DNA of 64,000 nucleotides from NCBI GenBank assembly GCA_903904755.1, contig CAIVDV010000040.1, positions 1 through 64,000 of the forward strand, in the 5' to 3' direction. A program made the translations under genes and the position numbers. Below the pieces are notes generated by a model, which was not told the origin of the DNA, ran no database searches, and saw only the letters and a program-made list of their open reading frames with translations. Positions 30,383 to 37,189 of the stretch are shown here, piece after piece (within the stretch, counting starts at the first letter, position 1; every line of letters begins with the position of its first letter). The stretch comes from an uncultured Acidobacteriaceae bacterium (GTDB taxonomy: Bacteria > Acidobacteriota > Terriglobia > Terriglobales > Acidobacteriaceae).

Positions 30383-30387
30383 TCTTT

Positions 30388-30423
30388 AGCTCCGCTAACT
30401 CCGCTAGCCCCGCTAGCTCCGCT
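30388..30423 (+). repeat. 4 x 9-bp tandem array before leuC
   Basis: Exactly four head-to-tail 9-mers, AGCTCCGCT, AACTCCGCT, AGCCCCGCT and AGCTCCGCT, fill the space between the leuB stop (30382) and the AAAAGGAA ribosome-binding site of leuC. The same type of array recurs before ilvD. Confidence 0.85.
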
Positions 30424-30435
30424 AAAAGGAAACCC

Positions 30436-32492: not shown

Positions 32493-32534
32493 ACGCACAG
32501 GCGGGCGCAACCAACCTTGGCCCGCCGACTTTCT

Positions 32535-32570
32535 AACTCCGCTAGCTCCGGTAACCCCGCTAGCTCCGCT
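32535..32570 (+). repeat. 4 x 9-bp tandem array before ilvD
   Basis: Four head-to-tail 9-mers, AACTCCGCT, AGCTCCGGT, AACCCCGCT and AGCTCCGCT, directly upstream of the CAAAGG ribosome-binding site of ilvD. Copy number, unit length and position relative to the site match the array before leuC. Confidence 0.85.
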
Positions 32571-34358: not shown

Positions 34359-36113
34359 ATGTCGACCAACGAATCGAATGCTCACCTCACCACCCCTACC
34401 CGCCTCACCGGTGCCGAGATCGTCTGGGCAACCCTGGTAGGCGAGGGCGTCACCGATGTCTTCGGCTACCCCGGCGGAGCCATCTTGCCGGTCTACGACG
34501 CCCTGCGCAAGTTCCCCATCCACCATGTCCTTGTGCGCCATGAACAGGGCGCATCCCACATGGCAGACGGATACGCGCGCGCCAGTGGCAAGGTGGGGGT
34601 TGCCATCGCCACCAGCGGCCCCGGTGCGACCAACCTGGTCACCGGCATCGCCACGGCCATGCTCGATTCCATCCCCATGGTCTGCATCACCGGCAACGTC
34701 TCCAGCAAAGTGCTCGGGACCGATGCCTTCCAGGAAGTCGACATCACCGGCATCACCCTGCCCATCACCAAGCACAACTTCATGATCAACCGGCCTGAGG
34801 ACATCGCCCCGGCCATCCGCTACGCCTTCCAAATCGCCAAATCCGGCCGCCCCGGCCCCGTGCTGGTCGATATCACCAAGGACGCGCAGCAGGCCACGGC
34901 CATCTTCGACTTTGCCGCCGCCAAGCCCGCGCCCTACAAGCCGCACCCCATGCTCCACTGCACCTCCGAGCATCTGGCAGCCGCCGCCGACCTCATCCGC
35001 AACGCCAAGCGCCCCATTATCCTCGCCGGCCACGGCATCATGCGCGCCAATGCCATGGAGCAGGTCCGCACCCTGGCCGAGCGCATGCAGATTCCCGTCG
35101 GCACCACCCTGCTCGGCATCGGCAGCTTCCCCGCCTCTCACCCGCTGAACATGGGCATGATGGGCATGCACGGCGAAAGCTGGGTCAACAACGCAATCCA
35201 GGAAGCAGATCTGCTCATCGCCTGCGGCATGCGCTTTGACGACCGCGTCATCGGCACCCCGGCCACCTACGCGCCCAACGCCAAAAAGATCCACATCGAA
35301 ATCGACCCCGCTGAAATCAACAAGAACATCAAGGTAGATGTCGCCCTGGTCGGCGACCTCCATCATGTCCTCGAGCAGCTCCTGCCGCTGCTTCCCGGCC
35401 GCGACGGCTCCGCCTGGATCAACGCGATTAACTCCTCCAAGGGCACCGCAGCCGTCCGCGACATCCGCAACCTGCCCGACAGCGGCCATCTCTACGCCGC
35501 CCACGTCATGCACGACCTCTGGCGCATCACCGGCGGCAACGCCGTCGTCTGCACCGACGTCGGCCAGCACCAGATGTGGGAGGCACAGTACTACCGCCAC
35601 GACCAGCCCCGCACCCTCATCACCTCCGGCGGCCTTGGGACGATGGGCTTTGCTTTGCCCGCCGCCATCGGCGCCAAAATCGCCTGCCCCGAGAAGGAAG
35701 TCTGGGTAATCGCTGGCGACGGCGGCTTCCAGATGACCGCCTCCGAGCTCGCCACCATCGTCCAGGAAAAGATCAAGATCAACATCGCCGTCATCAACAA
35801 CGGCTACCTGGGCATGGTGCGCCAGTGGCAGGAGTTCTTCTACGAGCGCAACTACCAGTCCACCCCGCTCGTCTCGCCGGACTTCGTCAAGCTCGCCGAC
35901 GCCCACGGCATCCCCGGCATCGCCGTCCGCGACCGCGGCGACCTCGAAGCCGCCGTTGATGAAGCCCGCGGCGTCGAAGGCGCATTCCTCATCAACTTCC
36001 TCGTCGAGCAGGAAGACTCCGTCTACCCCATGATCCCCGCCGGCTCGGCCCTCCACGAGATGATCCGCCGACCCAGCCACAACCCCCTGATCGAAAAACC
36101 GGAAGACGAGTAG
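34359..36113 (+). CDS. ilvB: acetolactate synthase large (catalytic) subunit
   Basis: Thiamine-diphosphate enzyme of 584 residues that makes acetolactate or acetohydroxybutyrate. The catalytic Glu is in LVRHEQGASHMADGYAR, the FAD-binding region and PVLVDITKDAQ follow, and the ThDP motif starts at GDGGFQMTASELATI and ends INNGYLGMVRQWQ. An AGGAGA site is upstream. In most genomes ilvN follows directly; here a 480-bp insertion with its own gene separates them. Confidence 0.96.
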   Translation: MSTNESNAHLTTPTRLTGAEIVWATLVGEGVTDVFGYPGGAILPVYDALRKFPIHHVLVRHEQGASHMADGYARASGKVGVAIATSGPGATNLVTGIATAMLDSIPMVCITGNVSSKVLGTDAFQEVDITGITLPITKHNFMINRPEDIAPAIRYAFQIAKSGRPGPVLVDITKDAQQATAIFDFAAAKPAPYKPHPMLHCTSEHLAAAADLIRNAKRPIILAGHGIMRANAMEQVRTLAERMQIPVGTTLLGIGSFPASHPLNMGMMGMHGESWVNNAIQEADLLIACGMRFDDRVIGTPATYAPNAKKIHIEIDPAEINKNIKVDVALVGDLHHVLEQLLPLLPGRDGSAWINAINSSKGTAAVRDIRNLPDSGHLYAAHVMHDLWRITGGNAVVCTDVGQHQMWEAQYYRHDQPRTLITSGGLGTMGFALPAAIGAKIACPEKEVWVIAGDGGFQMTASELATIVQEKIKINIAVINNGYLGMVRQWQEFFYERNYQSTPLVSPDFVKLADAHGIPGIAVRDRGDLEAAVDEARGVEGAFLINFLVEQEDSVYPMIPAGSALHEMIRRPSHNPLIEKPEDE

Positions 36114-36128
36114 AAAGAAATCAGCAGT

Positions 36129-36145
36129 CAGAGATCAGAGATCAG
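36129..36145 (+). repeat. left heptamer repeat flanking four-helix-bundle gene
   Basis: CAGAGATCAGAGATCAG, two and a half copies of a 7-bp unit AGATCAG, 15 bp after the ilvB stop. It is the reverse complement of the right-hand repeat at 36558-36589. Confidence 0.8.
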
Positions 36146-36192
36146 TAACGGCACCTGGCTTTAAGTCCTTGTCGCCGTCCACAGAGGCAAAC

Positions 36193-36561
36193 ATGGCGCA
36201 GTCATTTCGAGATTTGATCATTTGGCAGAAATCGATGCAACTGACTGTAACGATTTATCAACTCACGCAGGGGTTTCCCCGCGAAGAACTTTACGGACTC
36301 AGCAGTCAACTCCGGCGGGCCGCAGTATCCATGCCCAGCAATATTGCAGAAGGACACGGACGGCTGAACACACGTGAATTCAAACAATTTCTCGGTATCG
36401 CACGAGCTTCAGACTTTGAATCGCAGACCCAATTGGAGATTGCGAGGCGGCTGGGAATGGGAGAAATCAAATTGCTCGACCTAGCCGAAAGCCTTTCCCA
36501 TGAAGTAGGAAAGGTGATTTACGCAATGGTGGAATCTCTCAGGAGCAGCATCCAAAACTGA
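36193..36561 (+). CDS. four-helix bundle protein (23S rRNA IVS / S23-like family)
   Basis: A 122-residue all-helical protein. Family signature is clear: FRDLIIWQKSMQL at 5-17, FPREELYGLSSQLRRAAVS, SNIAEGHGR and a helix with EFKQFLGIARASDFE. Homologues are encoded within intervening sequences of 23S rRNA in spirochaetes and others, and as free genes; the distantly related Avd protein assists diversity-generating retroelements. Molecular role of the free proteins is unknown. The gene sits between ilvB and ilvN, is bracketed by inverted 7-bp repeats, and its stop codon lies inside the right repeat. Its codons are less GC-rich than those of ilvB. The start follows AGAGGCAA. Confidence 0.9.
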   Translation: MAQSFRDLIIWQKSMQLTVTIYQLTQGFPREELYGLSSQLRRAAVSMPSNIAEGHGRLNTREFKQFLGIARASDFESQTQLEIARRLGMGEIKLLDLAESLSHEVGKVIYAMVESLRSSIQN

Positions 36562-36589
36562 TCTCTGATCTCTGATCTCTGATCTCTGA
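36558..36589 (+). repeat. right heptamer repeat flanking four-helix-bundle gene
   Basis: Four copies plus four bases of CTGATCT in tandem (32 bp). It includes the stop codon of the four-helix-bundle gene and ends 9 bp before the ilvN start, so it also occupies the ribosome-binding region of ilvN. Confidence 0.85.
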
Positions 36590-36598
36590 AAGGCCGTT

Positions 36599-37189
36599 AT
36601 GTTGCACACATTTGTAGCGTACGTAGAAGATAAACCGGGCGTACTCACGCGAGTCGCCTCTCTCTTCCGCCGCCTCAACATCAACATCAACTCGCTCACC
36701 GTCGGCCGCTCCGAGCGCCCCGGCCTCTCCCGCATGACCATCGTCGCCGACGCCGACGAAAGCGCCGCCAACCGCATGAGGGCCAGCCTGTATAAACTGG
36801 AAGTGGTTGTCGAGGTCGATGACATCGGCAAGAGCGCCTCGGTCACCCGCGAACTGGCGCTCATCAAGGTCGCCGCGACCGCCGAAAACCGCAGCAGCGT
36901 ATTTGAGCTCGCTGAGGTCTTCCGCGCCCGCATCGTCGACCTGACCAGCGAATCGCTGATGATCGAGATCACCGGCGTCGAAAGCAAGATTGAAGGGCTC
37001 ATTCAGGTGTTGAATGAGCAGGAAAACCGCGTGCTCGAAGTTTGCCGAAGCGGGAAAATGACCATGCGCCGCGGCCAGCACACCAGCCGTGTCCTGCGCG
37101 CGCTGGGTGCCGTGGACGGAGCCTCCGCTCAGTCCGCCAACCTTCTGCCCGAGGCTTACGGAGAACCCGAAGCCACCGAGCCGGAGTAA
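36599..37189 (+). CDS. ilvN: acetolactate synthase small (regulatory) subunit
   Basis: A 196-residue subunit with an N-terminal ACT domain (HTFVAYVEDKPGVLTRVASLF, where valine binds for feedback inhibition) and a C-terminal ACT-like domain. About 30 extra Ala/Glu-rich residues at the C-terminus make it longer than usual. The only ribosome-binding sequence is GAAAGG just after the repeat array, so insertion of the upstream cassette must have rebuilt the translation start. Confidence 0.94.
   Translation: MLHTFVAYVEDKPGVLTRVASLFRRLNININSLTVGRSERPGLSRMTIVADADESAANRMRASLYKLEVVVEVDDIGKSASVTRELALIKVAATAENRSSVFELAEVFRARIVDLTSESLMIEITGVESKIEGLIQVLNEQENRVLEVCRSGKMTMRRGQHTSRVLRALGAVDGASAQSANLLPEAYGEPEATEPE

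Follow-up and report, generated by a model that had tools for sequence, protein, structure and literature searches.

A candidate mobile cassette between ilvB and ilvN of an uncultured Acidobacteriaceae bacterium: an S23 gene within its own inverted heptamer arrays

Why does a small gene for a four-helix-bundle protein lie between ilvB and ilvN, and does it belong together with the short repeats on its two sides? We analysed this locus in a window of 64,000 nucleotides (the whole stretch studied, positions 1 to 64,000 of contig CAIVDV010000040.1), in which ilvB, ilvN, the S23 gene and its two arms lie on the forward strand. The upstream neighbour, ilvB for the acetolactate synthase large subunit (34359-36113; TIGR00118, 713 bits against a cut-off of 538), and the downstream neighbour, ilvN for the small subunit (36599-37189; NF008864, 162 bits against a cut-off of 119), were both intact, in line with the sequence-only reading. 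The S23 (23S_rRNA_IVP) gene between them encodes 122 aa (36193-36561) and starts with the ATG at 36193, with the TTG at 36169 as a possible alternative. Its left (5') arm at 36116-36146 and its right (3') arm at 36557-36587 are tandem rows that form an inverted pair of 31 nt each, 87% complementary and separated by a gap of 410 nt, and these coordinates confirmed the proposed placement between inverted AGATCAG and CTGATCT arrays. The right array (36558-36589) consisted of 4.6 perfect CTGATCT units, inverted relative to the left one as claimed, but the left array was degenerate: of its AGATCAG copies, two are perfect and two imperfect. The stop codon of the S23 gene (36559-36561) indeed falls inside the right array, but the ribosome-site-like AAGG of ilvN (36590-36593, found by eye), which had been placed there too, lies immediately 3' of it. 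The repeats exceed chance expectation, as the 14-mer AGATCAGAGATCAG occurred 20 times in the same genome (G000), and not once when its sequence was reversed.

The S23 protein is a clear member of its family, with an E value of 9.5e-35 and 119.5 bits against PF05635 (cut-off 33.8) and 115 bits against TIGR02436 (cut-off 24). The sole relative of solved structure that we found was 2gsc, which is Xcc0516 of Xanthomonas campestris (E 4.5e-23). Comparison of the gene with the copy at the same site in the genus genome G002 gave differences of 0.25, 0.14 and 0.55 at the three codon positions, which means that the gene has been kept as a protein under purifying selection. Among its family matches there was no transposase and no known catalytic domain. 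S23 proteins are common (a match was present in 96 of 151 sampled genomes of the class), and to our knowledge they have no assigned function. The genome of the window itself carries three S23 genes, each within inverted arrays and each with a different unit.

We interpret the segment 36116-36589 as a small mobile cassette of the intervening-sequence (IVS) type, made of an S23 gene and its own self-matching heptamer arms and similar to a RAYT-REPIN system without the transposase, and we give this reading a probability of about 60% on the strength of sequence comparison. The suggestion of a mobile cassette in the sequence-only reading was supported by the patchy occupation of the ilv site, the arrays around other S23 genes and the similar arms at unrelated sites, each described below; mobilisation in trans, also suggested there, gained no support from this analysis.

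Arrays bracket other S23 genes as well, a question left by the sequence-only reading, and their unit varies by locus in the class, across phyla and on plasmids. To score the arms, we aligned the 350 nt upstream of the domain locally with the reverse complement of the 350 nt downstream and took the best alignment, with a threshold score of at least 30. This was reached by 32 of 42 S23 loci in the class (same-direction alignments 1/42), by 37 of 40 in a further sample of the class (direct 1/40; L314, counted here, duplicates the gene L063) and by 55 of 79 across phyla (same-direction 8/79), and by none of 28 PIN-domain control loci in either orientation. Plasmid loci, mostly from cyanobacterial plasmids, reached it in 6/6 and 10/12 cases, together 16/18, counts that cover 18 of 29 records and include the near-copies L301/L302 and L417/L423. 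On viral contigs the score was reached by 25 of 32 loci (direct 5), where L248-L250 lay outside the scoring and several loci, hits and misses alike, are near-copies of each other. Flank windows differed slightly between the main scoring (class, cross-phyla, PF13366 and PIN) and the plasmid sets. From the class rows we dropped L033, truncated at the end of its contig, and L034 and L035, with a broken gene; short flanks removed one locus each from the cross-phyla and PF13366 sets and two from the PIN set. About one fifth to one third of the S23 loci stayed under the threshold; 20 array-poor cross-phyla loci were scanned with Rfam as possible rRNA insertions, and this idea was rejected, as no rRNA was found. 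Compared with partner-swapped flanks, 39 of the 80 cross-phyla loci had p<=0.01 and 61 had p<=0.05. Among the loci scoring at least 30, a period of 7 or 14 was seen in 25/32 (class) and 34/55 (cross-phyla), and the AG-rich strand was the 5' one, pointing towards the gene on either flank, in 26/32 and 54/55, respectively. The layout of a gene within mirror repeats occurs in many phyla with a different unit at most sites, which suggests a form of wandering DNA that is widespread yet hardly described.

If gene and arms form one cassette, similar S23 genes at unrelated sites should have similar arms. Arm similarity was correlated with S23 protein identity over 120 loci (r 0.337, 0/500 shuffles), that is, over the 123 loci with arms minus three having internal stops, with L314 excluded. 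The correlation was also found for the 104 pairs whose two members share a genome (r 0.478), and distal flanks gave only a weak one (r 0.086, 1/300 shuffles). For the 201 pairs with a protein identity of at least 0.6 and flanks without detectable protein homology, mean arm similarity was 0.269, with a shuffled baseline of 0.058 and a maximum of 0.090 in 2000 shuffles. As an example, L171 and L179 of a single Prevotellaceae assembly and L207 all had TTTCTAGTCCCTAG-type arms and unrelated neighbours. Comparison shows gene and arms as one unit, jointly inherited and recurring at unrelated sites, and it also shows that arms vary by lineage, yet both arms of one locus match each other. The correlation by itself is no proof that the protein recognises the arms, because common descent of the cassette gives it too. 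We infer that the cassette moves as a unit. A recent transposition between the Calothrix plasmids L301 and L302 was considered and rejected, because their homology extends into the neighbours and so shows no move. Near-identical moved copies were absent among 40 extra class loci, where the best pair had 84% DNA identity and came from two genomes.

The ribosomal IVS is a close known relative of such a cassette, and it also gives the strongest alternative to it. At L427, on an Azospirillum lipoferum plasmid, an S23 insert with AGGACGG/AGGACAG-type arms lies within a 23S rRNA gene and takes the place of a hairpin loop near model position 1218, in what we take to be helix 45. The IVS shares with the window an S23 family protein whose ORF lies within complementary terminal arms; the window cassette differs in its place between two protein genes, outside rRNA. 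Tandem heptamers are common to both, since the available part of PMC4990558 describes tandem GACAGAT heptamers ahead of the S23 start in the Coxiella IVS, together with a 28-bp terminal stem and cleavage of the IVS by RNase III. With the Azospirillum arms and the Coxiella heptamers, the ribosomal IVS and the cassettes in operons appear to be elements of a single kind. Solo arrays and co-variation of arm and protein have no counterpart in the portions of the IVS literature covered.

The insert might be an RNA element like the rRNA IVS, whose arms are complementary so that the operon mRNA folds into a long stem and RNase III, by cutting it, releases the S23 part, its spread being incidental; we consider this unlikely. 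The Coxiella heptamers and the cleavage by RNase III speak for it, and in the predicted RNA fold of the window the arms closed the entire insert (z -3.5, with 1/100 shuffles equally good). The orientation of the genes also favours it: by a longest-ORF rule, S23 was co-directional with both neighbours at 43 of 80 cross-phyla loci and opposite to both at none, a placement to be expected from an RNA route and equally from selection against antisense inserts. But an antisense S23 gene does exist, in Nostoc edaphicum (L303, 1489-1857), where it lies between nrdB and nrdA, opposes both and has arms that agree at 33 of 34 positions. If a sense-strand RNA stem were under selection, G.U-type mismatches in the arms should moreover outnumber A.C-type ones; we counted 38 versus 40 and 51 versus 75 of them at S23 loci, and this lack of a G.U excess speaks against such selection. 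The RNA element also leaves unexplained both the similar arms at unrelated sites and the solo arrays of matching unit.

The history of the ilv site was compared in 15 genus genomes, in 14 of which ilvN was located. The S23 gene was present in the ilvB-ilvN spacer of two (G000 and G002), bare inverted arrays enclosing a short loop in place of S23 were found in three (G001, G013 and G014), and nine had plain spacers of 19-71 nt. The sequence-only reading had proposed to compare the spacers of related strains for empty sites, and in this comparison the gene is not carried at this place by all relatives. In the bare hairpins the paired arms also matched each other, and the units differed (AGTGTGA-type and TAGCTTC-type). 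A genome of another genus, G022, had inverted AGCTTTC-type arrays in the same spacer (L049), with a loop of roughly 100 nt between them and no visible S23 frame. No transposition event, target duplication or clean pair of empty and filled site was seen; at the ilv site, the divergence of the flanks could obscure any duplication. The history of the site was also approached through an IlvB and IlvN tree, which was set aside, as the two S23 genomes were not resolved in it and the bare-hairpin genomes grouped weakly (support 61/90).

These bare arrays of G001, G013, G014 and G022, of which G001 gave no S23 match in its genome, could mean that the heptamer hairpins belong to the host, where slippage and template switching make them independently of S23, and that S23 genes land in their harmless loops. 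We find this improbable, because the arm unit tracks the S23 protein lineage at unrelated sites. Unbiased scans pointed the same way. In 464 kb of the window's genome, the scan for separated inverted pairs (arm score at least 38, gap up to 2.5 kb) gave four pairs, two of which were both of the S23 loci of the sample; in 400 kb of G182 it gave 16 pairs, and both S23 loci present and one PF13366 locus were recovered among them (3/16), the remaining pairs being RAYT-like transposase loci (ORF judged by eye), bare AGTACTC arrays and coding pairs. A further point against independent host repeats is that no period-7 array occurred in four genomes lacking S23, with 100 kb sampled from each.

Comparison shows that geneless arrays of the S23-arm unit are scattered through the same genome: solo arrays of period 7-8 resembled own-genome arms more than foreign ones in G000 (13 arrays), G182 (26 arrays, compared with one of its S23 arms) and G114 (38 arrays), with 0/1000 foreign sets reaching the value in each. 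G013 had one solo array, which failed the test (707/1000 foreign sets reached it), and even in G000 the own similarity was at least 0.46 in 5/13 arrays and at most 0.12 in 8/13. The number of period-7 arrays per 100 kb rose with the number of S23 genes (Spearman 0.80 over 14 genomes, which are related to one another and sampled only at 464 kb, 400 kb and twelve times 100 kb). It was 26 in G114 (10 S23 genes), 6.0 in G182 (8), 2.6 in G000 (3), 2 in G119 (5) and in G143 (3) and 1 in G013 (2), and zero in G009 and G003 (one S23 gene each) and in G123 and G174 (three each). The arrays of G000 were unevenly placed, as 10 of the 12 period-7 arrays of the 464-kb sample lay on contig C40, nine of them at 103-143 kb, and the longer contig C9 had only two. 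Arrays of GATTTGTG type, with at most one mismatch, occurred 45 times in G114 and 57 times in G182 (reversed pattern 0 and 3), and no partner for this unit was found among the available S23 arms.

Least credible of all, and in our view very improbable, is a host regulatory or defence device in which S23 and its arms tune the surrounding operon, as the purifying selection on S23 and its recurrence in certain operons (between two genes that we read as pheS and pheT in five genus genomes, and in cas operons) would allow, because presence is patchy at each site and the neighbours (ilv, phe, nrd, cas and rRNA) are unrelated, which suggests no shared regulatory target.

How, then, could such a cassette spread? 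As the S23 protein has no known enzymatic domain, we suppose that its oligomer would recognise the hairpin of its own arms and help to copy the cassette, or the arms alone, into gaps between genes, with the copying itself done by host or other enzymes. Insertion between co-directional genes, with the stem looping out the insert, would leave the neighbours usable. The classical rRNA IVS would then be such an element too, with a hairpin of ribosomal RNA as its insertion site. Tentatively, and with less confidence than in the cassette itself, we extend this to a selfish element based on a non-enzymatic four-helix-bundle protein, which would bind selectively to the heptamer arms that belong to it and cause them to spread, either together with the gene or alone.

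Another close known parallel is the RAYT-REPIN system, which, in the part of PMC3116915 available, likewise has one gene flanked by inverted short repeats, repeats that are also scattered without the gene, singly or as inverted pairs, and a repeat type that matches the gene type (as here in G000, G182 and G114, though not in G013). The differences are that S23 is a four-helix bundle and RAYT a tyrosine (HUH) transposase, and that S23 arms are tandem heptamer arrays and REPINs tagged palindromes. The Avd protein of diversity-generating retroelements has a related fold, according to the accessible part of PMC10053308, but the bAvd match of the window protein was weak (22 bits, under the cut-off of 40); the genome had two RVT_1 matches, on contigs C23 and C82 and not on the window's contig. 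An unrelated protein family shares the arm layout of S23: PF13366 (GxxExxY) genes of the same class (L106-L135) had inverted short tandem arrays with a score of at least 30 at 24 of 29 loci (same-direction 8/29), with units such as ACAGAGG, CACCGAGA and ACGAAGGAC that were 8-10 nt long where periodic, no clear period being found in 14 of the 24.

For decades, bacterial heptamer repeats have figured in the literature as orphans. Excerpts of PMC4692102 report intergenic GGGAATC and GGGGA[C/T]T in Xanthomonas and Nostoc, in arrays only a few units long, and count 70 and 75 inverted heptamer pairs of convergent orientation in two xanthomonads, and those of PMC4679880 report intergenic TAACTGA heptamers in Beggiatoaceae, whose complement TCAGTTA is the arm unit at L062, and heptamer arrays also in Cyanobacteria and Bacteroidetes. 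In these excerpts, in contrast to our loci, the arrays are tied to no gene, and the term S23 is absent from both texts. Within the open-access literature of PMC, which leaves most subscription papers and all preprints outside, heptamers were known from the Coxiella IVS, and we found no general link between S23 and heptamer arms. In cyanobacterial plasmids, S23 genes lay inside cas operons, between cas6 and cas4 twice and between cas10 and cmr3 once (L306, L419 and L421, with arm scores of 57, 29 and 62, respectively). S23 genes in cas loci have been listed as possible CRISPR-associated genes of interest (18 genes; PMC3936711, in part) and are also named in a legend of PMC10910872. The link offers a testable role to both S23 proteins and orphan heptamers, and an explanation of the S23 genes in cas loci. 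If the selfish element is real, many bacterial heptamer repeats that now lack an explanation would come from it, as would the presence of S23 genes in cas and other operons, the ribosomal IVS would be one landing site among many, and PF13366 would be a second, unrelated protein sharing this way of life.

Short arrays of another kind occur in the same amino-acid gene cluster of the window, where 9-nt arrays of TAGCCCCGCTAACTCCGC type lie at 30387-30425 and 32533-32570 in two other spacers without S23, beside genes that by eye appear to be leuB/leuC and leuD/ilvD.
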